From positions 169,693-233,692 of the forward strand of contig MU130016.1 of the NCBI GenBank assembly GCA_015039465.1: DNA of 64,000 nt, written 5' to 3'. Every line of letters starts with the position of its first letter. Position 1 is the first letter of the stretch. Source of the stretch: Phlegmacium glaucopus (taxonomy: Eukaryota; Basidiomycota; Agaricomycetes; Agaricales; Cortinariaceae). Below, one piece after another: positions 1-64,000 of this stretch. A program made the translations under genes and the position numbers. Under the pieces are notes generated by a model. The model saw only the letters and a list, made by a program, of their open reading frames with translations. It was not told where the DNA came from and searched no databases.

Positions 1-1180
1 GGAGGATGAAAAGGAACACACACATACTAAGTATTTCTTTGCAGCCAATGACAAGATGAAATATAAACTTCAAAGTGATGATCTACAGCTTGTGACAGTC
101 ATCAAAACCATTTGCACAGATGGAACTGCTGAAATAGGACCTGGCTTTGTGTTCCCTGGAACAAAAAAGCACTATGAATGGTTTGAACAGTGGGATGTAA
201 CTTATATGTGAGTTGTATAAATGTTCAAAAAGCAGAAATATCACCTGGTATGATTAGAATTGGGACATCAGAGAATGGATGGATGGATGACAAGATAGGC
301 TTTGAATGGTTCAAAGAAGTCTTCGTGGCACAAGCCACAGAGCACAATTGCCACACAACTGAACAAAAACAAGCCAAGGAGAAACAGAGTGCTTAACAAC
401 CAGATATCCACCCTGAAGAGGAACAGGCAGCTGAAGATGAAGAGCTGAAGTTACCACCAATTCTGCTTATCAATGATGGTCACGGTTCACATACCACTCT
501 TGACTGGATCACACTTGCCCAGGCAAACAACATCATCCTATATTGTCTCCCTCCTCACACAACCCATTGGCTACAACCTCTGGATGTAGGCTGCTTTGGC
601 CCCCTTCAAACTGCATGGTTCAACCGATGTGATGACATCCTAGATGAGACAGGAGAGCCGATGGAAATGAAAGATGTGGTTGGAGCATATTTTGTGGCAA
701 GGAGAAAAGTATTAGGGCAACTGCGGTACTGACTTAGTCAGACTAGCAGGGGATCCAAAGTTAATAATATTATAAGTAAACATGTTACATCAACTCACCT
801 AGCAGGGGATCCAAAGAGGAAAGGATAAGGATCCCTGCTAGGATGGTGGGGTATTTAAGTACTAATATGGACATAATGGAGATATGTAAATAAATAAATA
901 AATGGTACAATAATAAAGATAATAAAAATGGTGTCATGTAAAGATAAAATAAAATAATAAAATAAGAAGTTGAATCAGGATCAGGAGTTGGGTTGGGACC
1001 AATTGAGATTTGGGAGTTGAATTGGTCGGTTCAGGTTTGGGTCACTTTCATCAGTGAGGTGGAGTGTACTGAGCCACAGTCAGGTGTAGATTCAGGAGTG
1101 GAATCAGGAGTTGGTTTGGACTGAGGCAGGGTTCAGGCCCAATTGGGAAGTTGGTAGTTTGGTCGAAAGTTGGGCGTTGA

Positions 1181-1754
1181 TAGTGCTTGAAAGTCCGGTT
1201 AGGTCCGGTTATTTGGTGCCCAGGGGCTCTAACCGAGACCGAGACCGGTTAGGCTTCATTCCCAAACCCAAAATAACCTAACCGGACCAAAAATCACTGA
1301 CCAAAACCGGTTAGTTGCAGTTACTAACCAGTTAGGACCGAAAAAATGAAAAACCGGTTATAGCCGGGCAAGACCATACATATTTCTCTCAATAAACATT
1401 ATTTACACGCATCGTAGCTTTAAAATGAGCCCAAGAACGCTAAATTTGATGAAGAATTGACAAAGCTATGATAATATTCTTGAAAGTCTACTTTTGGCCG
1501 ATATTTTAAAGATTTGACCATAACTCAGTCAGATTTTTAGTGTTTCTCACGTTTTTGGGTGCGTTTTAAAGGGGTATAATAAGGTCGTTTATAACCGGTT
1601 ATAACCGGTTTTTTAACGGTTAGTTAACCGCAAAATAACCGGTTATTTCATTTTCAGAATCAACTAACCACTAACTGCAGTCCAGTCTTTTTGCGGTTAG
1701 GTCTGGTCCAGTCTTGGTTATTTTCTGGTTAATTAACCGGACTTTCAAGCACTA
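1181..1754. mobile_element. hAT-type MITE, TIR TAGTGCTTGAAAGTCCGG
   Basis: Terminal inverted repeats TAGTGCTTGAAAGTCCGGTT and its reverse complement bound a 574-bp non-coding element full of ACCGGTTA-type motifs. Flanks are GGCGTTGA and GGCATTAA, an 8-bp duplication matching at 6 of 8 positions. TIRs starting TAGTG plus 8-bp target duplication indicate mobilisation by a hAT transposase. No ORF. Confidence 0.75.
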
Positions 1755-2269
1755 GGCATTAATTTACCTGCAGTGGGGACAGACCGCAAGTAGTTACGTA
1801 GTTTGTGGGGTTGATGTAGTGCTCTTCAATAGGTGAAAGTTAGGCTTTATGAGGTGCAAAGGTTTGCTTTAAAGTGCGAGATAATGCACAGAAAAAGCGA
1901 AGTGTGCAGGATGATTTTAAAGGAGTGCAAGAGTAGCTTAGTACGACATTCCAAAAGTGGGATCAAAACTGTGGTAGTTTTGTCCATTCTCCTCTATGCT
2001 TTACCTTACTTGCTACTGCTAATAATATAGTAACTAGCAAATAGCTAAGTGCGGAAAGGTGAAACAGAAATGTAAAATGTGGGTTAAAGCAGAGTCACAT
2101 GGGTCCAGTAATTTGGTAATGAAACATAGGAGATAAGAGCCAAATAAAGGAGACAAGATAAAAATAAAGATGAGTAATAAAGTCACCTGAGTGACCTTTG
2201 TTGGAAGTGTGTTTAAAGATTGCGAGAACTGCTGGTAACTGTGAATGATAATGTGAATGTTGGTGATGA

Positions 2270-3573: not shown

Positions 3574-6500
3574 TCAGTCAGGTTTGCCACCTGATGAGAA
3601 GGTTACAATGTTAATCCAGAAACTATATTTGAGAACAAACATTGAGTAATAAGTAAAAATGCTGAGTAAAAATCTAAGAATCATGCATACCTCTAAAACC
3701 AAAACTTCTCCTGATGTATATCCAAGGCATATCTTAGACAGATGTTGACTAATAATTTGGGGTTTGCAGAAAAGAGGTGGAATCCAGATTTTCTGAAGGT
3801 TTTTGGTGTGGAATATGGTGTTTTCAGATATTACAAGGAAAGATGGCTGGGCTGAAAGATGAATATTGCCATAAGAATCTTTCCAGATAAAAACACCATC
3901 AGGAAGTGGTGATACAACATGTAATTGAGTATTATCAGATGAAGATGGAACAGAAGTATGTCCTTTCCACTCTGCTTCACACTGCCCTGTCACTGTATTC
4001 CAGATCCATACAGTGTGATCATCAGATACAGAGACAATGTGCATACCATCAGAAGAGAAGAGAGCAGAATTGATCCTGGATGAATGTCCTCTCAGCTTTG
4101 CTTCACACTCTCCTGTGGCTGTATTCCATATCCGTGCAGTGTGATCATAAGATGCAGACACAACATGCATACCATCAGGAGAGAAGACAGCAGAATTGAC
4201 CCTGGATAAATGTCCTTTGAGCTCTGCTTCACATTCACCTGTGGCTGTATTCCATATCCTTGCAGTATAATCAAAAGATGCAGACACAACATGCATACCA
4301 TCAGGAGAGAAGACAGCAGAATGGACAATACTTGAATGTCCTCTCAGCTCTGCTTCACATTCTACTGTGGCTGTATTCCAGATCCGTGCAGTGTGATCAG
4401 ATGATGCAGACACAACATGCATACCATCAGGAGATAGGACAGCAGAATTGACCCAGTCTGAATGTCCTATCAGCTCTGCTTCACACTCTCCTGTGACTGT
4501 ATTCCAGATCCGTGCAGTGTAATCAGAAGATGCAGACACAAAATGTATACCATCTGGAGAGAAGACACCAGACCTGACAATCTTTGAATGTCCTCTCAGC
4601 TCTGAATCACACTCTCCTGTGGCTATATTCCAGATCTGTGCAGTGCAATCAGAAGATGCAGGACACAATATGCATACCATCAGGGGAGAAGACAGCAGAA
4701 TTGACCCAGCCCGAATGTCCTGTCAGCTCTATTTTGCACTCTCCTGTGGCTGTATTCCAGATCAGTGCAGTGTGATCATCAGATGCAGACACAATATGTG
4801 TACCATCAGGAGAGAAGACAGCAGAATTGACCCTGGATGAATGTCCTTTGAGCTCTGCTTCACACTCTCCTGTGGCTGTATTCCATATCCGTGCTGTGTG
4901 ATCATATGATGCAGATACAATATGTGTACCATTAGGGGAGAAGACAGCAGAATTAACCCAGGATGAATGGCCTTTTAGCTCTGATTCACATTCACCTGTG
5001 GCTGTATTCCAGATCCGTGCAGTGTGATCATCAGATACAGACACAATATGCATACCATCAGGAGAGAAGACAGCAGAATTGACCTTGGATGAATGTCCTT
5101 TGAGCTCTGCTTCACACTCTCCTGTGGTTGTATTCCAGATCCTTGCAGTGTGATCAGAAGATGCAGACACAACATGCATACCATCAGGAGAGAAGACAGC
5201 AGAATTGACCCTGGATAAATGTCCTTTGAGCTCTGCTTCACATTCACCTGTGGCTGTATTCCATATCCTTGCAGTATAATCAAAAGATGCAGACACAACA
5301 TGCATACCATCAGGAGAGAAGACAGCAGAATGGACAATACTTGAATGTCCTCTCAGCTCTGCTTCACATTCTACTGTGGCTGTATTCCAGATCTGTAGAG
5401 TGCAATCATCAGATGCAGACACAATATGCATGCCATCAGGAGAGAAGACAGCAGAATTGACTGTGGATGAATGTCCTTTCAGCTCTGCTCCACACTCTCC
5501 TGTGGCTGTATTCCAGATCCTGACAATGTGATCATAACATACAGACACAATATGTCTACCATCAGGAGAGAAGACAACAGACTCGACATCCGTTGAATGT
5601 CTCAGAACTGCTTCAGACAGGCTCCATGCCTTTCTCCTTCCCACACAGAGCCTCCATTGACAGTCCATTCTACTTCCATATGTTTTCCAGATGTCTGATG
5701 TTTCTGGCAGCCAGGCTAATGCTGATGGACATCCCTCTAGGCTGTTTCTTTTGATGAAATCAAAATTCTCTTTCAAAAACCGTTCACCATCAATCACCAT
5801 TATGGCCAAGTGTTTTTGGGTCTGGTTCTGTTCTAAGTGCAATTCATTTGCAGCAACAAGATCACCCCCATTTACCCAATTTTCTAGCCTATGTAGTGCA
5901 TGCATTGCAGCTCCCAACTTTCCTAGAATACTCAAACAATCCATCCATCGCAGAAGATGTGTTTGAAAAAAATGTTTTAACTGATCAGATCCATTATTAT
6001 TGTCTGTATAGGTGAAGTGAAAGGCCCAGCTATCACAAGCATATGCAAGTGATTCAGAAATCTCTTCACATTTCCTTTCTGCCAAGTAAGAAACATCTTT
6101 CTTACCTGACCACTCTGTATCCATTAATGATAGACACTGAAGTGCTAGGGATTTATGTGAAACACAAGGGTCAAGATAGTGCTTTGAGGAAAGCATCTGA
6201 TTACTGATGAATTCATAGAAAGAGGCATGGAATGTTGAGATGGGTACATCAGGGTCTTGAGATGGAATATATATCAAGGAATGAAGAGAAGAAAGAGCAG
6301 CCTCAGTGTGCTCTATGGGCATTTGCATCAGAGCACTGATGGCAGTCATAGAGAGAGGATTATAGACATATACCACAGCTATGAGAACCTTGTCTATATT
6401 TAGTCTCTCCTTTTCATATGTAAAGGCATAGGCAGCATCCAAAATTCTTTCATAAAGAATATTCAGTGGATGGGTTACACCAGATGTTGGTTTCAATGTC

Positions 6501-8105
6501 ATATTGACCACATCTGAAAGACGATGAGGCATGCTAGAACTACCCTTCTGAGCAATATATTTGCAGACAGTTGCTGCATAAATGAACAAAGTACCAGACA
6601 TGCTCACAAGGCTCTCAAGTTCAGCCTGAGGAGGCCAATTATGCCTATTGTGCCTCACTTGGCTACCAAGCAAGCAAGCTTTAATATAAAGCTCAATATC
6701 AGCCTTGACAATCTCTTTTTCAACCTCATGAAGGATGAAATTGGAAGAATGATCCCAAGATTGATCAAAAGTCTCCTTGAGCACTATCTCTGGACGACTA
6801 GTGATGAAGAACTTGACTGGAAGAGATTTACTATGCTTTAAGATCACAGAAAGCAACTCAGCCACAAGAGACTGGCTGGAGCACTCATCCAGAGCATCAA
6901 GAACAATGACTGGGACATCTACTACTTGTCTGGTATCCCTGTAAGCATCATTGAGTGGTTTAACAATGAAATTCAGGAATTGATTCCTAATCCTCCAAGA
7001 CGAGCAGTCAGGATTGGCTTCCACTACATCCAGGATAAGTTGTGAAAGGGAAGGAAAATACTTGGCCAACTGAAGGGCAACGGTGGGGATGATGCAACGA
7101 ACATCACTAGTATCAACCCGAAGGTGAGAAGCGAAGAAGGTACCACCAAGGGAATCCTTTTCATGGAGGATTTCACTGAATGAGTAAGCAATTGTCGTTT
7201 TGCCGGTTCCAGCCATCCCATTGAGCCAGTATACCTTTGTGGTTGTATTATCATTTACCCACACTTGCAGCGCGTCAAGGATTGCCTTGCGAGTGTTCTC
7301 CGTACATGGGTTACGTGGGGCAGGAGATTCTGCATCATATTCAGCAAATTGAGCGCGTGGCAGGAGTTTCTCAAATAGTGCAGTCTATGAAGTTAGATTT
7401 TAGCGAAGATCATTACACTCCGAAGATTATACACTCACTAAGATTCGAGAGCTCGATTGTTCATGTCCATCAGGTTTGGACACATGCTGGATCTGGCGAG
7501 ATGATTAAATTCTCAGCACATCGATTGGCTCCTACGCAGATAGAATGATGCTTACACTGTTGGCCATGTTGATTGTCGGCTGGTGCAGGTATACATTGTG
7601 AGCGCCTTGGAAGAGAGACATTGGACCGTGGGTGTTTGGTGATGTGTGCTACATGAACAGTAATTAGTGACGACGATGGTGAGCGCAGCATAGACGCTGA
7701 CCATGGGTGGAATCTCTGGTCCTTGGCTACTAGCAGCACCAAGTTGCCCAGGCAGAGCAGGTCTGGTTACTGAAGTGGGTACGGAGATTGGAGTGGACGC
7801 CGTGTATGCTTCCGTACTCGCAACCGCCGTGGCAAGTACGTGATCGACGTTGACAACAGGGACTATTTCGGGCAGCAAATTACTTGAAAGCATGAGGATG
7901 TTAAGTAATAATCAATGAATATCAGACAACAGAATGTAGTTACCCACCTTGTTCCTGCATCCACCGCCGCCATATGATTACCAGAGCTTGAATCCACCTC
8001 GATCGATGATGGTGTAGGTGGGCGCTTCGAATGAAAAAGAGAAGATAAGTGCTTTTTGAAAGATCGAGCTACGCGATTGTTGCTAGAGGGACTTTCACTC
8101 GACAT
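3574..8105 (-). CDS. NACHT-WD40 NLR-like protein (one 1-nt frameshift)
   Basis: STAND NTPase of the fungal NWD type, the class that includes HET-E/HET-D allorecognition proteins. A first exon from ATG at 8105 (Ser- and Lys-rich, to about 7948) splices with AG|GTGGGT to a second near 7882; the middle exons are unresolved. The NACHT exon opens near 7387. It holds Walker A GMAGTGKTTIA and Walker B VIVLDALDECSS. From about 5620 down to 3960 follow about 13 WD40 repeats of 42 residues, nearly identical to one another. An extra G near 4657, absent from the equivalent position of every other repeat, shifts the frame in repeat 8; the WD40 frame resumes at once. Either the allele is broken or this is a sequencing error in a repeat. 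In the family WD40 repeats form the ligand-sensing propeller and NACHT drives oligomerisation. The effector domain at the N-terminus is not recognisable. Confidence 0.85.
3960..5620 (-). repeat. Tandem 126-bp WD40 repeat array with identical blocks
   Basis: About 13 units of 126 bp, each encoding one WD40 blade with SGHS-type start, FSPDG and RIWN motifs. The stretches 4159-4392 and 5164-5400 are the same at the nucleotide level over more than 230 bp, silent sites included, while neighbouring units differ. The two blocks sit eight units apart. That pattern points to recent unequal exchange or gene conversion. Confidence 0.85.
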
Positions 8106-30130: not shown

Positions 30131-31449
30131 ATGATCATTGAAAAGCAACCTCTTCCAGAAGACCCGACACCAACCGAATCACCACCATCGTACGAAACGT
30201 TGAGCGCAATCAATAGAGACTATCCACGTTCAAAGAGATCCGAATTGACTTTGGTCGATCTGCCATCATCATCTTCATCACCACGTTCACCACCATTCTC
30301 ACCAAACTCATCTCCTTCAATTATAAGTTCAACTAGTGGTTCGTCTTCAAGTAACAAATGCAAGGGACGCACAGTCAATTGGTTCAACTTCGCTGCATCA
30401 CGCACCACACGAGAGGTTCGAAATACAGTCCTAGGTCTGATTCGTGATTTGGTTCAAGAACAAGACTCCAGCTTTCCAGCGGCGACGGGTATACTTCAAA
30501 GCTGCGCAGATGCATGTACAACTCATTCTCTCTCGTTATCATCCATTCTTCAAGAAAAATCTATCGAGAACCATACACCTCTATACTGGGCGATCGTAAA
30601 ACGGTTGCCAGATGAACATCACCAAGTCGAAGACTCATCAGGGCCCGACCTGCTATCAGCCTTGCTCTCATATTCAGCACCCCTCTCCCCAGCAACAATA
30701 ACAGACGTCCGCCGGGCCTGTCTGGCCACTTGCGATCAACACCTCTTCCAACGGTTACGACTTTCCCCAGAATTTGCACCTGTATCCGGCGTCGATCAGA
30801 TGTTGTTGGGCGGTACTATACCCCCTGATAATATCGAAGTAGAAAATGTTCCTGGAGATGGAGGCGCGTTCGTGGTGACTTTTGAGATTCTACATTTTCA
30901 CAAAAGAATGGTAGTATCGAAGAATATTGGTCTGGAGTTTATAGCTCGAAGTAAGTATTTGTATTTCTTCTTGTTTGAAGGAAGTTCATCAAATTCAATT
31001 ACAAAGATCGAATGTGGAGGCTGGAATTTTCAATCGCTCCTGAGAATGGATATGACGGCTGTCGTCCCGGTTCTTGGTGTATTTCACTATCTCTCCTAGA
31101 GACGAGTCCACCAACTTGGATAGATTCTCGTATCATAATCCCCGAGGCGACACCTCCATCAGCTGATCACAGCTCAGACCACCTAAACCCTCCACTCTCT
31201 GCGTCATCACGCTTCAAACTCCCTTCCAACGCATCGAAACCTAAACCAGCAATTGAGTTGAAGTTAGAGTCAAGTGAACAGTTGGAAGCTCCAAGAAAAG
31301 GACAATCTCCTAAACGTATCATCGTCACGCTACAGGACAGCCTGTCAGGCGCTAGCCTTCAATATGGGTAAGTAATTTGATGTCAGAGGCGGTACCATAT
31401 TTTTGATACATCCATCCGCTACAGGGAAAGTCCTTATGTTTTTGGATGA
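30131..31449 (+). CDS. Conserved hypothetical protein, 401 aa, three exons
   Basis: Exons 30131-30950, 31007-31367 and 31425-31449 join in frame (1,206 nt). The N-terminal 90 residues are Ser/Pro-rich and probably disordered. A helical middle follows (REVRNTVLGLIRDLVQEQ, then HTPLYWAIVKRLPDEH, an ankyrin-like look), and then a beta-rich part ending near RKGQSPKRIIVTLQDSL. I do not recognise a named domain. A decayed duplicate lies at 34215-35345, on the other side of the NACHT gene, which supports the exon boundaries. Confidence 0.7.
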
Positions 31450-34214: not shown

Positions 34215-35345
34215 CATTCTTGCCAGTCTCCTTCAATTATAAGTTCTACTAGTGGTTTGTCTTCAAGTAACAAATTCAAGGGACGCACAGCCAATTGATT
34301 CAACTTCGCTGCATCACGCACTATACGAGAGGTTCGAAATACAGTCCTAGGTCTGATTCATGATTTGGTTCAAGAACAAGACTCCAGCTTTCCAGCGGCG
34401 ACGGGTATACTTCAGAGCTGCGCAGCTGCCTGTACAACCAATTCTCTGTCGTTATCATCCGATTTTCAAGAAAATTCTGTCGAGAATCATACACCTCTAT
34501 ACGGGCAATCGTAAAACGGTTACCAGATGAACATCACCAAGTTGAAAACTCATCAGGGCCTGACCTTCTATCGGCCTTGCTTTCATATTCAACACCACTC
34601 TCCCCAGAAAGGAGGCGCGTTTATGGTGACTTTTGAGATGCTACATTTTCACAAAAGAATGGTGGTATCGAAACAGATTGGTCTGGAGTTTCATAGCTCG
34701 AAGTAAGTATTTGCATTTTTTCTTGTTTGAAGTTCATCATCAAATTCATTTGTAAAGATCGAATGTGGAGGCTGGAATTTCCAATCGCTCCTGAGAATGG
34801 ATATGACGGCTGTCGTCTCGGTTCTCGGTTTATTTCACTATCTCTCCTAGAGACGAGTCCACCTAGATTCTCGTCTTATAATCCCCGAGGCGACACCACC
34901 ACCAGCTGATCACAGCTCAGACCACCTAAACCCTCCACTCTCTGCGTCATCACGCTTCAAGCTGCCTTCCAATGCATCAAAACCTAAACCAGCAATTGAG
35001 TTGAAGTTAGAGTCAAGTGAACAGCTAGAAGCTCCGAGGAAAGGACAATCTCCTAAACGTATCATCGTCATGCTACAGGACAGCCTGTTAGGCGCTAGCC
35101 TTCAATATTGGCAAGTAATTTAATTTCCGAGACGGTACCATATTTTTGATACATCTATCCGCTACAGGAAAAGCCCTTATGTTGGTTTGGATGAGACCTT
35201 GAGGGGTCGTTTAGAGGCTAGACTCGGGAAACCAGGTCCCGAATGTATGCTTTGTTGATTTCATAGACTTCGGCACTAATACTGCCCTTGTTCCTAGTAT
35301 TATTCTGCAGAAGACCGATACAGTGCTCAACTACCCAACATACCC
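34215..35345 (+). pseudogene. Decayed duplicate of the 30131-31449 gene
   Basis: Closely similar to 30310-31585 over its whole length, introns included, but it has early stops, frameshifts and an internal deletion of roughly 190 bp (joining sequence equivalent to 30680 and 30860). The GTAAGT donor of the last intron is changed to GCAAGT. It ends near the left LTR of the Gypsy element. Confidence 0.85.
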
Positions 35346-35365
35346 TATTGATTAACTCCTCCCAC

Positions 35366-37229: not shown

Positions 37230-40200
37230 CAGAGCAACAAAAGAAACGGGTAGCAGTCCCTAAGCATGACGAGCCACTGCTTGGGGACAAGACTGGGCCT
37301 GCCAATGGACTGTATACCCCAACGTATGGGGAGGGAGCTTTACCAGCAGATGTAGTGGTTATCCCAGATACAAGCACCTTGTACAACGTCACAGAAAATG
37401 ATAACATTTTAGACTTGTATGGTATTGGCAGCCTACAGAGAGAGAAAGGAGAGAAAGTAAGCATACCGTTTGTGCATGGAGTGGAACTGGCAGGACCGCG
37501 GGGAGAAACAGTGAGATTTCGGAGTGTATTTGACGACGGTGCCATGACAAGCGCCATTGACGAAAACATGTACCTAGCATCACAGGGCCGTCTATCAGCA
37601 CTGGAACCCTCAGCAAAGGTCCTCCGAATGGCGGATGGGAGACTTGTAGCATCCGCAGGTGTGTGGAGGGGATGGGTAACAGTTAAAGGGGCCAGCCGCA
37701 AAGCTGTCTTTGAGGTGTTCAACAGCAATAACGCATGGGCCTTGCTTGTCGGAAAACCACTCCTGGAAGCATTCAGCGCTGTCCATGACTACTCAGACGA
37801 CATTATACGCATACCTCAGGAGGCGCAATGGATAGTTCTGGAGAATCAATTTGCAGACACACGGGGCATTGCCGCAAATCTACCTGCAAACCTCACAGTT
37901 GACATCAAACAGCTCATTAATGTTTCCAGGGGTATGACATCGCCCTCCCAGACCATAGCAAAGGCACCTAGAACCAAATTTGCAAAAGTCATCAATACGA
38001 TGGACTCAGGAGATAATATGAACACGCACGAACATCTAGGGGCATTTGCGATCCCCCTTGAGGGAAGTCCTTCAAGCCAATTGAACCCAGACCATTGCCC
38101 TGCTAACAAAGACGCAGATATCAGTTCAGTTGATCCAGAACAAAATAGGTCAGGAACAGACGAGAACTGGAGCGCAATATGGCTCCTGGATACCATAGCA
38201 GGAAACAGCCCTATACACCCCGGCATAGCCCAGCCCAAAATTGTTAGGACCTTTGAGCCCAACCTTTTGACGAGGAAAATGGACCCGCACAACCAGGCAC
38301 GTGTGGCAGCAATCCTCGCAGAAATCACTATTGGCCACGACCTAACCCAGGCCCAGCGAGAAGCAGTCTGCAAACTGATATCAGAATATGCAGAATGTTT
38401 CGCCTTGTCAATGAGCGAAGTCTTACCTGTCAAAGGAGCATCTCATCGTCTCGACATCCCTCGGGATAGACAATTTCGAACACGAATCAACCAAAGACCA
38501 CAGAGCCCACCCCAAAAGGAGTTCTTCAACGGGGTGATAGACAAAATGTTAGAGGCAGACATAATAAGACCGATTGCGCACCAGGACGTCAAATGCTGTG
38601 GAGCCACTACCTTAGCAAAGAAAGCTCATGAAGGCAATGGCCTCACGCTCAACATGCTGAAGCACCGCGTGAATGATGAATGCATAGCAGCCGGCTTTCC
38701 TTCTGCATTCGAAAACCTACCACCAAAAGATGAAGTAAACACCGACTCCTGCCCTCCCCAGGCACAGAACAAGTGGTGCGTCTGCCAAGACTTCACTGAG
38801 CTAAACGAGGTCACCAAGGTGCCACCAATTGTTAGGGCAACTGCAACGCTGACTTAGTCAAGCTAGCAGGGGATCCAAAGTTAATAATATTTCAGAAAAG
38901 ATATCTACAAGTGACTTACCTAGCAGGGGATCCAAAGAGGAAAGGATGGGGATCCCTGCTAGGCTGGGGGGAGTTAAGTACTAATATGGACATAACGGAG
39001 ATATAAAATAAATAAAGGAATGATACAATAATAATTAATTAATTAAATAAGAAGTGGTGCGATATGAAAAATAGAAATAAAAGACGGAGTGAATCGGAGG
39101 ACCGGAGTCGGAGCGGAACTACGGGATTCCGGAGTCAACCGGTGACGGAAGCGGAGTTGGACGGAAGGTCGGAGGTCGTCGGAAAGGTGGGGTGTATGAT
39201 TCTAGAGTTGAGGTTTGGGTTAAAGTCGGGTGTCCCCTAACACCAATGCCCCAGGGCGACATCCGCCTAAAGCAACAGAACTTGAGTGGCCATCGTTGGG
39301 TAACGGTCTTCGATTTTGCAAATGGATTTTACGCCTGCGAAATTGACCCAGTAGATCAGCCCTATGTATGCTTTTACGTGGAGGGACGAGGATACTTTGC
39401 TTATAAACGCATGCCATTTGGTCTCACAGGCGCACCATCCACATTTGTGGAAATGACAGCAAGTGCATTGGGTGATCTGATAGGAACGCTGATTGAGCTG
39501 TTTGTCGATGATGGTGGCCTTGCAGGAGATGAATTTGAAACCATGCTTACGAACACACGTCGACTACTTCACCGAGTAAGTGAAACAGGACTCTCTCTAT
39601 CAGCAACAAAGTCCAGGTTTTTCATGACCGAAGCAACATTTGCTGGCGGAAGGGTTGGCCCAGACGGTATTAAACCTGACTTGACAAAGTTAACAGCTGT
39701 GGCTGACTGGAAGACGCCAACTGACCTGCAAAACCTAGGCTCCTTCCTGGGTTTGACAGGCTATTTTCGGCCTCTCATTAAAGGGTATGCAACGATAGCA
39801 CAGCCACTTACCGACCTTGCACGTAAACTGGAGCTACCCAAGCTCAAGGGAAAGGCTGCCTACACCCGTGCCATGAAAGGATGCTCGCTCATCGACCTGT
39901 GGAAACAGGAGCATGACCAAGCCTTCCTACATCTAAAAGTTGCGCTTACCTGTGAGCCTGTGCTCAAAGGGCCAAAATATGATGGCACGCCGTTCATTGT
40001 GACCACAGACGGCTGCAAATATGGGTTTGCAGGAATGTTAACACAAAAGTTTACAACGATCCTCCCTAACGGGACAGAGAAGACAACAATTCATCCAATC
40101 GGCTTCGCATCGAAACAAACATCAACAACAGAGGAGAAGTACAAGCCGTTCATTCTTGAATTCGGTGCATTGAAGCACAGTCTAGACAAATTCAGTGACA

Positions 40201-42068
40201 TGATATGGGGATACCCAATCGAGCTGGAGACCGACTGCCAGGCTCTCCGAGACCACCTCCTCAATACAACACTCAACTCGACCCACACCAGATGGCGAGA
40301 CGCTGTCCTGGCACACAACATCATTGACGTCCGACACAGGCCTGGACACCTCAATGTTGTTGCAGACGGTCTCAGTCAGAAGTTCGTAAATCTGCCTAGG
40401 GAGCAGGGAGACGGTCATGAATGGACAGTTAGCGAGGACTGGGAAGCACGTACCAGATTGGCCAATGATGTCTTCCACATCCAAACAGCCCAGTTGGAAT
40501 CAACCTACAGTGCATTACGAACACGATTCGCGAAGGAGAAGGTCTTCCTGGAAATCATAGACTCTATACTGGAGCTTGACCTTGGAAGGAGTCTTCGCGT
40601 GCGGAAAAGAGCACGACACAAAGCAAAGGGGTATATGATTGACGAGGGCAGGTTGTGGAAAGTAGGAGACAGATCAGCGAGGGCTAGGGCAAGATTAGAG
40701 TGTGTCACACAAGAGGAGACAGTCGCTCTTGCCTGGGAAGAACATCGCAACCATGGACACTTCCACCAAGATAACATCAAAGTGAAACTCCTAGACAGGA
40801 TCACGAGCCCAAAGATGGACCAATCTATCGTGAAGGCCATCATGGACTGCGGGAAATGCAAGAGTTTCAGATCAACACACCTCCATTCCCTCCTCGAGCC
40901 CATAACTAGGCGCCATCCCTTCAAACTCATGGTAGCAGACACGTTGTCAATGCCTAAGGGGAAAGGCGGCTTCACGAAACTTGGGCTTTGGATGGACGTA
41001 TACGCACAGCAGGTATGGATAACAAAACTGAAGTCAGCTGCCACAGGCAAGTCTTCGCAAAGGAGCTACAGCGACATCTGCGACCTCTTCACAGCATCCG
41101 AGACGCTAATGGTTGACGGAGGACCTGAGTTTGATAACAAAGAGTTACGGGAGGAATGCGCTAACCGTGGAACCAAACTAGAGATTTGCCCAGCATACTC
41201 GCCATGGGTCAATGGGCTGATCGAAGGCACCAATGCAATATTATTGAATCGCCTAAAAAGAATGTGCGCACCAGATCTGGGAGAGGACGAATATACGAAG
41301 ATGGAGATACCTGCCAACTGGCCAGATCATCTTGATGCAGCCGTTCGTTGCATCAATGACCGCATCCTTCCAAACCTGAAATATTCGCCAAATGAACTCC
41401 TGTTAAGTCTCGCCATCAACACAAAGCCGACACCTCTCACCGGAATATCATCCACACCAGATGCCGAGGAGGTAGAGACGCAAATGGCATACGTGAACCA
41501 ACAACGGTTTGATGGTTATGCACAAATCGTCGATCATGCCCATCGCCACAAGGCAGCCTTTGATAAGCAGGTATTGGCACACCCCCCACGAGAGGTTATC
41601 TTCAAGGCCGGTGACCTGGTACAGGTGTACCGCAGTGACTTAGATTACACCTTCGCAACAGAACGGAAGCTACTACCAAAATTCTCAGCTCCACAACGAG
41701 TCACAGGTCAAAACCATCACTCTTACCAGCTTGAAACTCTAGAGGGCCTACCAATTGCAGGGAAATTCAGCTCACAACGGCTACAATTGTTCATACCGAG
41801 GGAAGGGACAGAGTTGGAAAGGACGCAAGCAGCAATAGAGAAGGAATGGCGTAGACGAGAGGAAAGAGATGACGAGGTCGAAGAGGGAGTTGACAGGGAG
41901 ATTGAACAGGATCCGAACTTAACGTCCACAAGGGAAGGCATTGGTGAGAATACAACGGCACTTCCATACGGAGAAGAGGTGGACAAACCAGAAGACTGGG
42001 CCGAAATAACACCATCTCGTAAGCACAACGAGGCACCCTACAGAGCACGTTCGCTGGGAGACAGTTAG
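37184..42068 (+). CDS. Gypsy Pol (protease, RT, RNase H, integrase), interrupted
   Basis: Expected to be made as a Gag-Pol fusion by -1 frameshifting. The protease active site reads VFDDGAM (DDG in place of DTG, seen in related fungal elements). RT begins with CVCQDFTELNEVTKVPP and is cut at 38829 by an LTR-like insertion; it resumes at 39248 with MPQGDIRLKQQ and has the catalytic box LFVDDGG. RNase H starts near TTDGCKYGFAG. Integrase has the HHCC zinc site and the DDE core (VADTLSMPKGK, VDGGPEFDN, NGLIEGTN). The C-terminal GPY-like part ends near 41800. Apart from the insertion the frame is open. Confidence 0.88.
38830..39242 (+). mobile_element. LTR-like element (solo LTR), 413 bp, inserted in Gypsy RT
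   Basis: Starts TGTTAGGGCAACTGC, ends TGTCCCCTAACA, flanked by CCAAT on both sides (38825-38829, 39243-39247). Removing it and one CCAAT restores the RT frame as KVPPMPQGD. Same family as 710-2510. No coding capacity. Confidence 0.85.
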
Positions 42069-42106
42069 AGGTGTACGCAACGAGGGCGTTGCTTAAGTGT
42101 AGGGGG

Positions 42107-42491
42107 TAGTGTTACCAAAGTTCGGTTCAGTTCGGTTCTTCAACTATTTTTGGAGAACCGAGAACCGAACTGAAAGGTTCCTGGATGAACTGAACCAGAA
42201 CCAGAACCGGAACCGAAAGAACCGGTTCTGTCGGTTCTGTTCGGTTCTAGAACTGGTTCAAACCGTCGAACCAATGAAAAAAAACCCCATTGCCAATGGT
42301 AATTTATTCATTATTACATTATTACTAGTAACCTGATAAACTAAACTAAGTGGGTCCCAACTAGTGGTTAGTGTCTAAATGAGTGAGTTGTTCATCCATT
42401 GTAGCTTGGTATTAGAAATAAAATGACTGCCAGGTTGCTGCCTTTGCTGCCACTCATTCGTCGCCAAAAAAAAAAAAAAAAAAAAAAAAAA
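42107..42491 (+). mobile_element. 385-bp insert ending in A26
   Basis: Begins TAGTGTTACCAAAGTTCGG, is rich in GAACCGGTTC-type motifs like hAT MITEs, and ends with 26 consecutive A residues directly before the second Gypsy pol copy. It sits between the two tandem pol segments. It could be a truncated MITE, a retroposed sequence or an assembly joint. Confidence 0.45.
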
Positions 42492-44984
42492 GTAAGTGAA
42501 ACAGGACTCTCTCTATCAGCAACAAAGTCCAGGTTTTTCATGACCGAAGCAACATTTGCTGGCGGAAGGGTTGGCCCAGACGGTATTAAACCTGACTTGA
42601 CAAAGTTAACAGCTGTGGCTGACTGGAAGACGCCAACTGACCTGCAAAACCTAGGCTCCTTCCTGGGTTTGGCAGGCTATTTTTGGCCTCTCATTAAAGG
42701 GTATGCAACGATAGCACAGCCACTTACCGACCTTGCACGTAAACTGGAGCTACCCAAGCTCAAGGGAAAGGCTGCCTACACCCGTGCCATGAAAGGATGC
42801 TCGCTCATCGACCTGTGGAAACAGGAGCATGACCAAGCCTTCCTACATCTAAAAGTTGCGCTTACCTGTGAGCCTGTGCTCAAAGGGCCAAAATATGATG
42901 GCACGCCGTTCATTGTGACCACAGACGGCTGCAAATATGGGTTTGCAGGAATGTTAACACAAAAGTTTACAACGATCCTCCCTAACGGGACAGAGAAGAC
43001 AACAATTCATCCAATTGGCTTCGCATCGAAACAAACATCAACAACAGAGGAGAAGTACAAGCCGTTCATTCTTGAATTCGGTGCATTGAAGCACAGTCTA
43101 GACAAATTCAGTGACATGATATGGGGATACCCAATCGAGCTGGAGACCGACTGCCAGGCTCTCCGAGACCACCTCCTCAATACAACACTCAACTCGACCC
43201 ACACCAGATGGCGAGACGCTGTCCTGGCACACAACATCATTGACGTCCGACACAGGCCTGGACACCTCAATGTTGTTGCAGACGGTCTCAGTCAGAAGTT
43301 CGTAAATCTGCCTAGGGAGCAGGGAGACGGTCATGAATGGACAGTTAGCGAGGACTGGGAAGCACGTACCAGATTGGCCAATGATGTCTTCCACATCCAA
43401 ACAGCCCAGTTGGAATCGACCTACAGTGCATTACGAACACGATTCGTGAAGGAGAAGGTCTTCCTGGAAATCATAGACTCTATACTGGAGCTTGACCTTG
43501 GAAGGAGTCTTTGCGTGCGGAAAAGAGCACGACACAAAGCAAAGGGGTATATGATTGACGAGGGCAGGTTGTGGAAAGTAGGAGACAGATCAGCGAGGGC
43601 TAGGGCAAGATTAGAGTGTGTCACACAAGAGGAGACAGTCGCTCTTGCCTGGGAAGAACATCGCAACCATGGACACTTCCACCAAGATAACATCAAAGTG
43701 AAACTCCTAGACAGGATCACGAGCCCAAAGATGGACCAATCTATCGTGAAGGCCATCATGGACTGCGGGAAATGCAAGAGTTTCAGATCAACACACCTCC
43801 ATTCCCTCCTCGAGCCCATAACTAGGCGCCATCCCTTCAAACTCATGGTAGCAGACACGTTGTCAATGCCTAAGGGGAAAGGCGGCTTCACGAAACTTGG
43901 GCTTTGGATGGACGTATACGCACAGCAGGTATGGATAACAAAACTGAAGTCAGCTGCCACAGGCAAGTCTTCGCAAAGGAGCTACAGCGACATCTGCGAC
44001 CTCTTCACAGCATCCGAGACGCTAATGGTTGACGGAGGACCTGAGTTTGATAACAAAGAGTTATGGGAGGAATGCGCTAACCGTGGAACCAAACTAGAGA
44101 TTTGCCCAGCATACTCGCCATGGGTCAATGGGCTGATCGAAGGCACCAATGCAATATTATTGAATTGCCTAAAAAGAATGTGCGCACCAGATCTGGGAGA
44201 GGACGAATATACGAAGATGGAGATACCTGCCAACTGGCCAGATCATCTTGATGCAGCCGTTCGTTGCATCAATGACCGCATCCTTCCAAACCTGAAATAT
44301 TCGCCAAATGAACTCCTGTTAAGTCTCGCCATCAACACAAAGCCGACACCTCTCACCGGAATATCATCCACACCAGATGCCGAGGAGGTAGAGACGCAAA
44401 TGGCATACGTGAACCAACAACGGTTTGATGGTTATGCACAAATCGTCGATCATGCCCATCGCCACAAGGCAGCCTTTGATAAGCAGGTATTGGCACACCC
44501 CCCACGAGAGGTTATCTTCAAGGCCGGTGACCTGGTACAGGTGTACCGCAGTGACTTAGATTACACCTTCGCAACAGAACGGAAGCTACTACCAAAATTC
44601 TCAGCTCCACAACGAGTCACGGGTCAAAACCATCACTCTTATCAGCTTGAAACTCTAGAGGGCCTACCAATTGCAGGGAAATTCAGCTCACAACGGCTAC
44701 AATTGTTCATACCGAGGGAAGGGACAGAGTTGGAAAGGACGCAAGCAGCAATAGAGAAGGAATGGCGTAGACGAGAGGAAAGAGATGACGAGGTCGAAGA
44801 GGGAGTTGACAGGGAGATTGAACAGGATCCGAACTTAACGTCCACAAGGGAAGGCATTGGTGAGAATACAACGGCACTTCCATACGGAGAAGAGGTGGAC
44901 AAACCAGAAGACTGGGCCGAAATAACACCATCTCGTAAGCACAACGAGGCACCCTACAGAGCACGTTTGCTGGGAGACAGTTAG
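42492..44984 (+). CDS. Second, partial Gypsy Pol copy (end of RT, RNase H, integrase)
   Basis: Duplicate of pol from 39576 onward, offset 2,916 bp, and lacking the RT catalytic box. The frame is open and by chance reads through the A26 tract as Lys codons. It differs from the first copy at about eleven sites, including Arg-to-Trp and Arg-to-Cys changes near the integrase core. It could not support transposition alone. Confidence 0.85.
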   Translation, partial: VSETGLSLSATKSRFFMTEATFAGGRVGPDGIKPDLTKLTAVADWKTPTDLQNLGSFLGLAGYFWPLIKGYATIAQPLTDLARKLELPKLKGKAAYTRAMKGCSLIDLWKQEHDQAFLHLKVALTCEPVLKGPKYDGTPFIVTTDGCKYGFAGMLTQKFTTILPNGTEKTTIHPIGFASKQTSTTEEKYKPFILEFGALKHSLDKFSDMIWGYPIELETDCQALRDHLLNTTLNSTHTRWRDAVLAHNIIDVRHRPGHLNVVADGLSQKFVNLPREQGDGHEWTVSEDWEARTRLANDVFHIQTAQLESTYSALRTRFVKEKVFLEIIDSILELDLGRSLCVRKRARHKAKGYMIDEGRLWKVGDRSARARARLECVTQEETVALAWEEHRNHGHFHQDNIKVKLLDRITSPKMDQSIVKAIMDCGKCKSFRSTHLHSLLEPITRRHPFKLMVADTLSMPKGKGGFTKLGLWMDVYAQQVWITKLKSAATGKSSQRSYSDICDLFTASETLMVDGGPEFDNKELWEECANRGTKLEICPAYSPWVNGLIEGTNAILLNCLKRMCAPDLGEDEYTKMEIPANWPDHLDAAVRCINDRILPNLKYSPNELLLSLAINTKPTPLTGISSTPDAEEVETQMAYVNQQRFDGYAQIVDHAHRHKAAFDKQVLAHPPREVIFKAGDLVQVYRSDLDYTFATERKLLPKFSAPQRVTGQNHHSYQLETLEGLPIAGKFSSQRLQLFIPREGTELERTQAAIEKEWRRREERDDEVEEGVDREIEQDPNLTSTREGIGENTTALPYGEEVDKPEDWAEITPSRKHNEAPYRARLLGDS

Positions 44985-45027
44985 AGGTGTACGCAACGAG
45001 GGCGTTGCTTAAGTGTAGGGGGGCACA

Positions 45028-57419: not shown

Positions 57420-58873
57420 TCAAGAAGAGCGTGCAGGTGAAATACTCACGCCTTGGCTGGCAAAAACTATTCCTACCGCCACAGGGACTGTAAAAAAAGT
57501 GGTACCTGAGTACATTATTTTGAATTCAAACAGACGCTTACTTACGCGCGGCCAAAGAAAACGCAAGAAGATTGACCCGGTTCAACATTTCATCCACTAT
57601 TGCCAACCTGTCAATATAATAAATTAATCCGCCGGGACAGTTTGATTATTTAAGCTTGAAAACAACCCAATTGACAGAATCGAACAGAGACCAACGACGC
57701 CGAGACGAAGAATGAGGCTGAATGAAGTATTGTTACGAATCAGAAGTGTGTTGCATGCGCTCCAATGGTTGCGACATCTGAGGATGATGCGCACTAGTCA
57801 ATGCAATGAATATATATCAATCAACTATTGGCAAGTGATCGGCAAAATAAATCGGTACTATAAGGTACCACCTCACCTCCCAAGATTAGGCCTGCAACCA
57901 GGGAACAAATGACAATAGCCGCTGTGATACGTCCACTGTGAAATCCAGTAATGGATAAAATGAGACTTTTCACAACGACGAGACGCACGGTAACCAGATC
58001 GTCAAATAACAAAAATATCCATTGGGTTCCCTCAGAATAGCCGTTGGATGGAGGAGGCCAAACTAGGAAGAGGAGTTAAGATCCACAATATTTATGAAGG
58101 TTTCATACTCACACTTAGAACTTCAATAAGGATACCAGTGAAGACACCATATGGTACGAAATAAAACTGCCAGTCGATCAGAGACCAGCAGAATACTCAA
58201 ACGAGAACAGATCATTCACGATTATCATTGTGGTTCGAAAGATGGTAGATAGACCGGATGTCGTGAGAAAGATCTTAGTTGCAGGAATCAGTATAATTCA
58301 TCCAGACTTTTTGGGGGGTTGTACTCACCTCTAGTATAAACGACACAAAGGCAAGTGAGTTTCTGTGTGCGAATTTCAGTCATGCAAAGTTCATAGCCAA
58401 AAAGTCAAACGAACAAGGCGGGAAGTGAATTTATTAGCATGGCTTGAAACAGGCAGTGAATATGACCCGGTAAGGGACCCGTTTGGTGGCCAAGGATAAG
58501 GAGGTAGCCGATGCATGACAAGACCCATGCAAAATTGAACGAATACCAGCCAGTTGATCGTCGAATGGAGGAAGAAAACCAAGCGGTGCATATTATGGCA
58601 GAAAGGAGTATCAGCCCGAAAATATGAAGGACATCATATGCGATAATAAAATGCATATTGGGCTTGATTACACTTTCTTCTAGCCGCCATGTATAGATAA
58701 GAGACCTCGGATATCGAATTATTGGATTCTTTGAATGACATACGTGGTTCGCAAGGATGAGGTATCGAGAGATTGGATCCTTTGAATCCTGTATGTCCCT
58801 TGCAAGAATCGACATTACTGTCATGCATGGGTGTGACTCGTAGCGAGAGGGGGGGATGAGTGGCGAGGATCAA
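57420..58873 (-). pseudogene. Multi-TM membrane protein, copy C, decayed
   Basis: Very similar to copy B. Exon 1 from MHFIIAYDVLHIFGL keeps its ATG but has the same Trp-to-TGA change after LPALFV. Downstream exons (FVPYGVFTGILIE, NGYFCYLTI, ITAAIVICSLVAGLILG, and an FTVPVAVGIVFASQ end) are recognisable. The shared stop suggests B and C derive from one another after the gene had died. Confidence 0.7.
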
Positions 58874-59185
58874 ATTTTGGAGGTCATGGATCCATTAAAA
58901 GGTAGAAAAGCATCTAGATATAATTTGTCAGCGTTGACAAGAGTCATGTCAGCGAACTCGCATATTGCTGATATGATCATCCCGGACTGTCTCAGCCCAA
59001 GTATTCAGCGAAATCGAAGTTTTGTATGTGAATTACTAGTTGAAATAAAACGCCAGGTTCTCGCCGCTCGGAGCGTAACTGAGGAGAAAAGATTGGTTTA
59101 GTAATAGCATGTTCTAAGAATAACAATTCTAATTTCTTGAGTGGCGGGCGATTGATGGAAGATGGATGATGGGGAGTCGCATAGT

Positions 59186-59646
59186 CCTGTTTTTACCGCG
59201 CCCCCAAACCCGTGCTAGAAAATCATTATGTAATCTTCGGACTTTGAATTATCGTCGCGTCGAGCTCACGCGACGACAGAGGTCTTTTGCTACTTTTTAG
59301 GATGAAAGTTGTTTTATTTAGCTTAGGCATCATATAAATTAAAATTTGGGGCTCAGAGGATGGGTGTTTATGTGACTTCCTCGTCGGTAGGAAATGAGAC
59401 CAAAAGTGGTGCACGTGATTTGGAGCTCAACTTGACATGCACCTAAATTTCGCGAAAGCATCCACATCGCATCAGATACTCCTAACTATATATATAATAC
59501 ATTTAAGGATAATATAAATACTTTCTCTCTAAAACGGCTGAAAAAACCCTTCAATTATCGCGTTCAGAGGAGATGAAGATGATTTCGAAGTCCGAAGATT
59601 ACATAAACATTTTCTAGCACGGGTTTGGGGGCGCGGTAAACAACAG
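59186..59646. mobile_element. TIR element with ~60-bp inverted repeats
   Basis: TTTACCGCGCCCCCAAACCC at 59192 and its reverse complement ending 59640 begin inverted repeats that continue, with a few mismatches, through GTAATCTTCGGACTT for about 60 bp. Total near 450 bp, no ORF. Target duplication not clear, so superfamily unassigned. Confidence 0.75.
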
Positions 59647-59789
59647 ACTTCATATATCGTGATCCATAACTCATGTCACATCACATATATCGAAGCTGTC
59701 TACGAGAGACTAGGAGTCGCAGTTTTGGGACCATTGCGGATAATCAGAACATACAGTTGATTATTTCGTAACACCTAACGCTCAGGAAA

Positions 59790-60167
59790 AACGAATGTCA
59801 GGTCAAAGTCAGGTCAACGTCACACGGAGTCGTGCGAAGTCATGTTGCTTTACTAAACTCTGACTAAATTACAAAATTTTTGACTAGTACTTGACAATGT
59901 AAGTCAATCAATAGTCAATCACCACCTCATACAATTTGGAATGTATAGTCATGTAAATGTACACCAAACATCATATAATAGTCACAAGTAGTCCAATGGT
60001 CAACGTCAGCATGTAGTCGTGCTCCATTGACTTGTAGTCAGGTAATGGTCAAGACACGTAACATTTCAGTCATTTAATAGTCGTTTAAAAGTCATTTAAT
60101 AGTCATTTAATAGTCATTTAAAGTCATTTAAAAGTCATTTAAAAGTTGTTTAAAAGTTGTTCAAAAG
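59790..60167. repeat. GTCA-rich region and AGTCATTTAA tandem array
   Basis: From 60066 a tandem run of AGTCATTTAA(A/T)-type 10-12-bp units; before it, scattered AGTCA/GGTCA motifs at high density. No gene. Confidence 0.8.
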
Positions 60168-60713
60168 TAGTGATGGTCAAGGGTAACCCCGGGGTGGAAT
60201 TAGGCTGACCCTTACCCTTACCCTCCAAAAACCCTTACCCTTGGCTGAGGGTAAGGGTTTTGGAGGGTAAGGGTAAGGGTTTCTGAGGGGTTGGAGGGTA
60301 AGAAACCCCAGCAGGGTTTAGTGCAAGGGTTTGGTCCAAATCCTTCCTCAAGCTTTGTAATCCAAAGGAGCCTTCAAAGTAGCTATTATTTAAAACATGT
60401 TCAGGGTGTTAAAGGTGTTTAGCAATAGATTTTAAATGAAATAGAGAGGGTTTGACTAGTATTTTAAGCTACTGATTGTTGTGAAAGCAGTGAGGCCTCT
60501 TTAGATTGCTTTTTCTCTGATTTAAAGTCAATTTTATAGATACACAACAGTTAGATCACTCTGATATCAGAGAAATAAAAATTCCCAAAAATACCCTGAC
60601 CCCTCCAGAAGGGTAAGGGTTTTTCAAGGGTCAAAAAATCTGTACCCTGACCCTGACCCTCCTTACCCTTACCCTTGTACCCCAGGGGTTTCTCAAACCC
60701 CTGCCCATCACTA
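60168..60713. mobile_element. hAT-type MITE built of CCCTTACCC/GGGTAAGGG motifs
   Basis: Ends TAGTGATGGTCAAGGG and CCCATCACTA, flanked by a perfect 8-bp duplication TTCAAAAG (60160-60167, 60714-60721). The interior arms are strings of CCCTTACCC and GGGTAAGGG. 546 bp, no ORF. Confidence 0.88.
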
Positions 60714-60865
60714 TTCAAAAGTCATTTGATTATCAACATAAAATATAAATCTAGGTGCAGGGGCAACGGCTACCAATAATCAGGATTCAAAATTAAGACT
60801 GCGGGGCCTCCAGGATATGGACTTTGTGGCCAAGGGATGTTAAGGAATAGCCAAAGCAGTCGTGG

Positions 60866-62665
60866 TCAACTTGGATGACCAGGACCGCCATCCGCGACGT
60901 TGACGACCTTCGAGTTACCAGCCTTCTGTGCCGCCTTTCTAGCCTTGCGCTGGTGTAAACCTGTTAATGTGTACTTCCGTATAGTGATGAACGCATCGTA
61001 CCTCTGCAATGATAGCGTCAACTTGGTCTTCCGTAGGTTGTTGGTCTGGCGGGGCATTCCTTATGAACTTGATCAAATCTGCATAAATTCAATTGGGGAA
61101 GAAAATCAGATTGTGATTCAATATTATTAATGGGGCTACTTACCGTCTTTTGATTTCTGCTTGTTGCCCAAGGCAATAACTATACTCCTGCTCTGGATCC
61201 ATCCTCTAAGTTCATCTTTGGTGAGCACCTAGCGATAAAAATCAATAAGTTAGCAGCTAGCCCATCATGTAAACCTCAAAACAATTGATTAATCACATGC
61301 AGCCCTGTGTTTGGTTTTACGCCTGCCACCAAACCCTTGCTTATTACACCTCCATGAGCCAAACCTCCATTGCGACTTCGTAGACCTGGACCTGTGTCTC
61401 CGGAGTCTCCCATCGTTACTCCAACCATATTTTCACCTGTTAGTGACGGAGCTGAATGTGCTGATGTACTTAGTGATGTTCCGGCCCGGCTTGGCCCAAA
61501 AGCCGCGGCTTTGGCCTGGCTTCAGCCGGCTCCGGCCTCACGAAAACCTGGGCCAAGCCAAAGCCCCCAAAGCCGGCTCGGCCTTGGCTTGGCCCGGCCC
61601 AGGCCACGGCTTTTGACAGTAATTCTACTATCAAGGTCATGTAGATTCAAAAAAATAATATTTTGGATGGTCTGCCATGGATAGCTGCTCTCTCACCTCA
61701 AAATTTGGTCTGTAGGTACTCAGACATATAATATACTGATATTTCAAATTTTATTTTGGAAAGGGTAAAGGTGAAGACCAGCGGAGCAATTCCGCGTCTG
61801 AGAGCCCCAAAATCAAGGAGATTCAAACGGTTCGTCATGACATGTCACATTGCCATTTCAATCCCCGCACGGCATTTGTGTCGTTTCCGTTTTCATTTGG
61901 TTTCCGTTTGCAAGATGAAGGTCATCCACGAAAATCAAGTACTATAATTGATGTAGGTATGGCATATGAGACACTATGTGTGTTGAAATATGTACAGAAG
62001 AGATATAAAGGTGATATGTAGAATGTTTAGCTAAGGATTCAATAATATAGTATAGTACATGAAAGGGCATAAGTTGTCGTCATTTAACCTGTAGGATACG
62101 AGGGGTGCGTATAGTAAGGATAAGGGTAGGAGTATGGTACATTAGCATTAACAGCAAAAGGGCCAATATTTCTGGTGCTAAAGCCACGGCCTGAGCCGCT
62201 GGCTTTGGCTTTGAGCTATCCTGGGCCAGGCCAAAGCCATTCCTGGGCCGTCACTTATGGCCCAGCCTGGCCCGGCCTAAAAGGGCTTGGCTTGGCCTGG
62301 CTTCCGGCTTTGAGCCGGGCCCGGCACATCACTAGATGTACTACTAGTACCTATAAATATTGAGGGCTGTGGTGACGATAAGGGCACAGTCGGTGACGAT
62401 GGAGGTGTTTGATGGCCTGAGCCAGGGTCCATTGGGGTTGCCCTAGTACTAGGTTGAGCCGCCAATGTCGATGATGACGGTGTTTGATGGCCTGAGCCAG
62501 GGTCAAGGTCCATTGCTATAGTACTAGTCTGAGCCATCGACATGGGCTTCGCAACCATGGTCATTAGCATGGTGGTAAAAATGGACAGATTAAACTTACT
62601 CCGCCTGCTTTGACCCACATGTCACAAAGTTCATCAACCAGATTAGAAAGATATGCCGCTGGGAG
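60866..62665 (-). pseudogene. 3' part of a spliced gene, exon split by a MITE
   Basis: Minus-strand exons: to 62600 (LPAAYLSNLVDELCDMWV, then donor GTAAGT), 62546-61297 (two copies of DPGSGHQTP), 61228-61144 (LTKDELRGWIQS, a SAP/Ish1-like helix pair, ending KQKSKD), and from 61078 (LIKFIRNAPPDQQP). The intron after 61297 has a CTAAC branch site. A MITE at 61471-62334 interrupts the second exon; removing it and one target copy keeps the frame. The 5' portion lies in the string-reversed block 62666-64000. The 3' end below 61000 is unresolved between two frames. Function unknown. Confidence 0.6.
61471..62334. mobile_element. hAT-type MITE, GC-rich, inserted in an exon
   Basis: Ends TAGTGATGTTCCGGCCCGGC and GCCGGGCCCGGCACATCACTA, flanked by a perfect 8-bp duplication GATGTACT (61463-61470, 62335-62342). 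Arms are rich in GGCTTGGCC/AAAGCC motifs; the centre is AT-rich. 864 bp, no transposase. Its TAGTGATG start is shared with the MITE at 60168. Confidence 0.92.
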
Positions 62666-64000
62666 AGTTATGGGAAAACTCCAGGAGACCGAAGATCTTC
62701 TGACGGCTGTTCTACGTCTACAGTTATAGGTTCTCAGCTTGTTCAGCGCCGGTTCGTACCTGTCTCGGTAGGCAGTGGGGCTACCGTGGTACTAATCGCT
62801 ATCACTTACCAGGCGGTAGTTCCGTAGTCGAGCCTCCTAGTGTTTACTTGACAGTCGCGAAGGTCTAGTATATGTACCCAGTAGAGCGGTTCGTTCCTAC
62901 GCTTTCTGTTTTTACATGATAGTCTGAGTGATACGGTTCCTAACCCGCTCGCGAGATAACTCTGATCTCCGACTCGTTGGAAATGACTTTAATACACGAA
63001 GATTGACCTTTCGTCTAGTACAGGAGCCGTTAAGTTAAGTTCGTTATCGAAGGTTCCTGAGTTCAAGCTGAAATTTCGTTTTTGTGTTCTTCTTCTTCGT
63101 CCTCTTCCCTTTTCTCTTCCCTTTCCTCTTCCTCTTCCAGTCCCTGCTGTGACTGTTAATACTCCACAACTCATTGTTCTTGCGGTCATACAAAAGACTA
63201 AGAGATATAGTAATGTAACGAATGAAAGAAAAGTCCGCTAAGGAGAGAAGTTTCACGGCGAGACGAGCTTCTGTGGCGACTGTAAAGGTACCCTAGTGGG
63301 TGTTGCTCATCCTACTCGTCATACTTCGCCGGACCGGGTAGATTAGTTGTACTCGTTTTTGGCCGGTTCTTTGTAGCTGTCGTCCTATCACCTGCCGGTC
63401 GTAGACCCAAGTTAACCTACTGGGGGAATTGTCACAACTAAGGATCACGTTTCCGGTAACACTGTAGATGTGGATGCTGATGGGGTGGGCCGTACAACCG
63501 CAAATGTAAATAGGTACAACTTAGGAGCACATTACATAAGAGGAATTACTTTACATTTCCATGATTGAAGTTGTATTCTACGTCGGGACTTTTCATGTAC
63601 GCGTAGAATATGGGTCGGAACCACGATTTTTTGATGTAGTCTACACGAATACGTTCTCAAGGGAAGGGAAACAGCGCCATAACTGGAGTACTTACGTTAC
63701 CTCCGTTTAGGATTGAAACCTCATCCTTATTGAGGTAGGGAATGCAGACTAAAGGAGAGGTCCTAGTTTTTACGCCTGGGATGATTAGGATCGGAGAGGC
63801 TCCTACTATGGCCTGGGAGGACCCCTGTAGTAGTTAAGTGATCACCTTCATACTGGTAATTTAGACAGTAAGTTAGGACCCTGACGCAGCCTTGGTTGTA
63901 TTAACGTACGTTTGAATAACGGCGACGGTAGTTCTGGACGTTTCAACGAGTAGTATAGACAAAACTCGTCTTGTAGGTGTGGTGAAGTAAGGATCGGCTA
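62666..64000. other. String-reversed block: coding only when complemented without reversal
   Basis: Neither real strand has credible coding. The complement read left to right is open from the left edge to 63186 (QYPFEVLWLLEDC, DADVNIQESNKSRPSMDRA, RLEAEQPLLKLCASNWKADH, then a Lys-rich run). A 45-nt GT-AG intron with a TTTTCAG acceptor follows (63187-63231). A second exon runs from 63232 to about 63554 (SMKRPGPSNQHEQKPAKKH), and a third to the window end (SLTSDFLSRIKNADP, TSFLAD). Its last codon (63998-64000) then joins in frame to the minus-strand codon at 62665 (FLAD|LPAAYLSN). The block therefore looks like the 5' part of the neighbouring minus-strand gene written backwards. Left boundary uncertain by about 10 nt. 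Confidence 0.85.

Follow-up and report, generated by a model that had tools for sequence, protein, structure and literature searches.

Several described systems offer a comparison for a stretch of DNA that stands back to front in a record. A biological DNA inversion likewise reverses the order of a segment in place, and it yields the reverse complement; to our knowledge, no cell process writes DNA back to front without complementing it. The 'swinger' literature reportedly includes a 2012 title on an 'invertase'. 'Swinger' sequences are proposed polymerase products, and the exchange A<->T plus C<->G is a class named in the excerpted text of PMC7027195; the minus strand of the record studied here is formally the normal sequence so exchanged. 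A strand error made during the patching of an assembly would likewise give mirror strings in place, with correct bases, both at tails and in contig interiors, and a literature search covering titles and the beginnings of abstracts found no published report of such a strand-handling fault. The locus described below resembles an inversion in its order, but differs from it in that the bases are not complemented.

The window, i.e. the whole stretch of 64,000 nucleotides that was analysed, corresponds to G000:C16:169693-233692, where G000 is the whole assembly, and its position 64000 is also the terminus of contig C16 (233,692 bases). A block at this terminus was found to be reversed without being complemented, as the initial annotation had proposed for 62666..64000. 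The right end at 64000 stood, and the left edge was shifted 9 bases further left, to 62657, by comparison with contigs C157 and C222:

62657-64000, no strand assigned: reversed block of 1,344 bases at the end of contig C16
62656..62657, no strand assigned: joint between normal order and reversed block, placed by comparison with C157 and C222

When window 62601-64000 was read as a reversed string, it matched C157 over 1344/1344 positions (L015:5004-6347, 98.66% identity), with 18 substitutions and zero indels, and C222 over 1341 positions without gaps (L014:4633-3293, 97.6%). These matches begin where the matches of the record as given stop (L015:5003 in C157 and L014:4637 in C222), no base is gained or lost at the joint relative to either contig, and the restored order reads as C157 does. 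Matches elsewhere in G000 to 62400-64000 as given end at about 62656, in a search that skips simple repeats. Across the genome, the reversed block was found at two other places only, those in C157 and C222, and the block as given, with both strands searched in G000, matched only itself; its paralogues are thus found by the reversed string and not by the given one, which is not the pattern of a biological inversion. These results showed that the block is a good-quality copy of a repeat from the same genome, in the correct place and in reversed order. The block is present in the whole assembly G000, beyond the window extract, and its exact in-place replacement is established for C16 only. C16 and C157 were also observed to terminate within the same repeat, C157 (L015:5004-6398) running 51 bases past the restored C16 end.

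The restored order has coding content. The three long open stretches and the GT...TTTTCAG intron that had been noticed in the complement read left to right were recovered, together with the exon portion that continues them in normal order:

62658..63278, left-to-right complement: open stretch 1, 207 aa, with 41 public homologues
63172..63681, left-to-right complement: open stretch 2, 170 aa
63187..63235, left-to-right complement: candidate intron of 49 bases, GTATGT...TTTTCAG, recognised by its ends only
63629..64000, left-to-right complement: open stretch 3, 124 aa, continuing in frame into the minus strand at 62656
62567..62656, minus strand: remainder of this exon, which stands in normal order and is joined to open stretch 3 in C157 (L015:4914-5375, minus)

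Across the joint, the reading stays in frame into the minus strand below 62656 and matches the unbroken frame of C157, in line with the earlier claim that restoration yields one continuous minus-strand gene. In a protein database search, the first stretch gave 41 homologues at E<=1e-3, the best of them being a partial Phlegmacium glaucopus protein, P0001, with 128/129 residues identical. Among 281 proteins (collected with the reversed readings and a single window gene as queries), those that matched the block did so in the reversed reading only; homologues on a true strand of the block, which the initial annotation had named as contrary to a reversal if none existed for the reversed string, were not seen in this set. 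A Pfam search with the three restored open stretches returned 0 families, and hence neither Plavaka nor Transposase_21; the three longest frames in the given order of the block (82 aa each) reached no Pfam cut-off, and Rfam gave no match in window 58000-64000. The gene is repeat-borne, two other copies having been found in the assembly, and is not a single-copy host gene. As for the Plavaka (PF18759) and Transposase_21 (PF02992) transposons of basidiomycetes, a PF18759 stretch in C222 is separated by about 3.5 kb from that contig's copy of the repeat gene, and PF02992 occurs in the reversed block of C222, unlike the three stretches of the window block, which have no Pfam family. Our guess would be that the window gene belongs to an element of the PF18759 or PF02992 type.

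The public data appear to hold the same locus. The window gene at 30131-31368 is identical to P. glaucopus protein P0042 over residues 1-273 and again over 275-394, out of 411, and P0001 and P0042 are both reported on a public contig of 237,701 bases, which would be the counterpart of C16. Once the block is restored, the start of P0001 falls on its first complete codon, as would fit a public contig that ends at the same base and carries the block in normal order. Since they differ at 1/129 residues and by 4,009 bases in length, G000 and the public contig are not the same file. Downstream of the P0042 gene (30311-31620 in this comparison), a second, decayed copy with stops was observed at 34227-35363 (91-92% identical).

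Methylated CpG decays to TpG, and the order in which the DNA of the block aged can be read from this process. The state common to C157 and C222 was taken as the older one, and a change was counted as private where the block differs from both. The C16 block has 13 private changes, 10 of them transitions of the C>T/G>A kind. In restored order, 9/10 of these fall at CpG (p 9e-7), and in the given order 3/10 do (p 0.44, chance level), 2 of the CpG changes counting for both orders; the test rests on 634 C/G sites in the block, of which 110 are CpG in restored order and 151 in the given order. Because 9/10 changes lie at CpG in restored order, the DNA of the C16 block aged in normal order. Judged by these substitutions, the test shows that the mutations of the block were laid down in restored order, although a very recent reversal would escape it. 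In a comparable block in contig C19, described below, 26 private changes include 4 C>T/G>A, at CpG in 0/4 cases when restored and 2/4 as given, which lends the restored order no support at that place.

Reversed composition was also sought by a k-mer scan of 293,311 bases whose training left out the block; it marked window 62658-63997 with a score of 37.9, the next best score in the window being 11.6 (1150-2218). The single higher score in the whole scan, 57.9, was obtained blind in the interior of C222:

C222:300506 to about 301678, complement: interior reversed transposase gene, 391-aa frame, PF02992

The open frame of 391 aa carries PF02992 Transposase_21 (1.4e-12), and the block aligns with P0162 (98.5% identity, 263 aa) in the reversed reading only. 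These two top scores, in C222 and C16, are the only ones of the scan backed by proteins. C10:4675-5686 (score 16.4) was rejected as a reversed stretch, since searching showed a normal high-copy repeat, and moderate scan scores are therefore unreliable alone. C10:7968-8986 (14.4) is of low complexity by eye, and the further marks (window 1150-2218, C9:1726-2389 with a score of 10.6, and a short stretch each in C7 and at the end of C18) are candidates by composition. The starts of C15 and C12 looked reversed by k-mer composition and were discarded, as they have many normal copies as given.

Reversed stretches were also found in repeats elsewhere in the assembly. The contig C19 (10,046 bases) ends like C16 in a mirror string:

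C19:9267-10046: reversed tail

Read as a reversed string, C19:9267-10000 matches C181, C150, C60, C41, C122, C5, C67 and C86, the match to C181 reaching C19:10017; as given, it matched, besides itself, only C94:6002-6731. The k-mer composition of this repeat agrees, with a reversed score of +11.8 in C19 and -8.3 in C181. The idea that two C19 elements meet exactly at the reversal joint was dropped, because the apparent boundary is a limit of the query, and C181 and C150 are alike beyond the joint. Since the majority of copies match the C19 tail reversed, C94:6002-6731 would also be reversed. In C94, three matches of the reversed type are clustered (3783-3853, 4027-4101 and 6002-6731), and C94:3783-6731 may be a reversed block of about 3 kb.

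Three repeat probes gave 89 forward and 4 reversed, 189 forward and 15 reversed, and 599 forward and 22 reversed first-look candidates, respectively, the forward counts including the probe's own place. Pooled, 41/918 candidate places (4.5%) match the reversed string only, a rough share because 40 candidates were scored per forward search and all candidates in the reversed ones. Reversed matches of at least 100 bits made up 3/4, 8/16 and 15/27 of the rows for the three probes and 4/4 for the 366-base stretch C19:8901-9266, giving a total of 30, on 26 contigs and in repeats of different age. As a control, a reversed all-against-all comparison, the C16 and C19 tail pairs aside, gave three matches, of 23, 31 and 49 bases. 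The inspection covered 20 contig starts (C1-C20, 10 kb each, with C3 and C18 wholly and C13 partly left out) and 21 contig ends (18 of 1 kb plus C16, C19 and C157); reversed tails were found at 2/21 ends, C16 and C19, in a survey that would miss short reversed ends.

Individual copies were also compared. Against the C19 probe, C106:134932-135254 (reversed) equals C245:57144-57466 (forward) in score, identity and length, as C144:182733-182828 (reversed) equals C161:15042-15137 (forward); the C106 and C144 copies look as if they were mirrors of the near-identical forward copies in C245 and C161. In C147, one end of a repeat is normal (337266-337423) and the other reversed (337760-337924), which hints at an interior in-place reversal within C147:337266-337924.

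The initial annotation had attributed the block to a data-processing fault or to an alteration of the record, and the in-place reversal, the CpG changes and the public protein P0001 all favour an origin of that kind. An error in the record is the most likely cause because the same fault recurs elsewhere in the assembly, and we consider that the block is very probably an artefact of the sequence record, produced by an assembly-wide processing fault. If the preparer of the record had instead reversed chosen stretches deliberately, for example as a planted test, one would expect a change as exact as this one, stopping at the contig end, and a public counterpart that, as the start of P0001 suggests, seems to have the block in normal order. 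This is nevertheless unlikely, given that the block stands in the whole of G000 and that 30 reversed rows are spread over 26 contigs in repeats of different age; so many reversed stretches point to a fault that arose systematically in processing more than to a single deliberate change.

Real mirror DNA, made in the cell by parallel-strand copying of the kind claimed for 'swinger' sequences or for nucleic acids polymerised from 3' to 5', would account for reversed copies scattered across many contigs, and would bring the record under the exchange class mentioned above (PMC7027195, in excerpt). Unlike such polymerase products, the DNA of the window block aged in normal order, an argument that a very recent event would escape; the exact in-place replacement at a contig end, the existence of a public protein in the normal reading and polymerase chemistry as generally known also speak against this origin, which we hold to be extremely improbable. 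There is an equally faint chance that some of the reversed stretches are physical and very recent, made after the CpG changes by parallel-strand copying mostly on repeats. Chance or low-complexity mirror symmetry does produce short matches, such as those of 23, 31 and 49 bases in the control, but it is refuted by the reversed-string alignment of 1,344 positions at 98.7%, with which open frames, homologues and joint all concur, and is virtually impossible.

The processing fault probably arose in a gap-patching or contig-end-extension step that takes a piece on the minus strand. If a minus-strand piece were complemented without being reversed, in-place reversal would follow; a plus-strand piece might equally be reversed without being complemented. 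Part of the patched pieces would then emerge as mirror strings, in contig interiors as well as at tails and chiefly in repeats. A reverse-complement routine that skips lower-case bases was rejected by reasoning, as it gives an in-place complement and not the observed in-place reversal. We take Cortinarius glaucopus to be the same fungus as Phlegmacium glaucopus, under which strain AT 2004 276 is listed in the taxonomy. The former name occurs in the excerpted text on the JGI mycorrhizal set, in which hybrids were assembled with ALLPATHS-LG and PBJelly patching (PacBio reads) and non-hybrid assemblies with Falcon or Celera (PMC7550596); for another JGI set, finisherSC and Quiver appear in the excerpt of PMC8480192. 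No program is named here as the cause, because these two excerpts (PMC7550596, PMC8480192) give no route for this genome.

As biology, the block is most likely no finding, and no real feature of the fungus. Of the copies of the probed repeats, roughly one in twenty is unreadable mirror text in this assembly. If the same holds in a public file, the annotation derived from it is wrong at those places, and so are repeat libraries and tallies of orphan sequence. Such strings could pass for novel DNA or for 'swinger' sequences. Self-search with reversed strings and k-mer asymmetry under reversal, two cheap tests that revealed the fault here, could be used to screen other assemblies; the k-mer test also gives false positives.

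Two further features were observed in the window. The stretches 39575-42106 and 42491-45022, of 2.5 kb each, lie side by side, are 99.6% identical and contain long polyprotein-like frames, presumably of reverse-transcriptase nature; the pair reflects either a recent tandem duplication or a further artefact of assembly. At 3574-7264, frames of many near-identical repeats, which we take to be of WD40 type, are encoded by DNA units that are mostly 84-90% alike.
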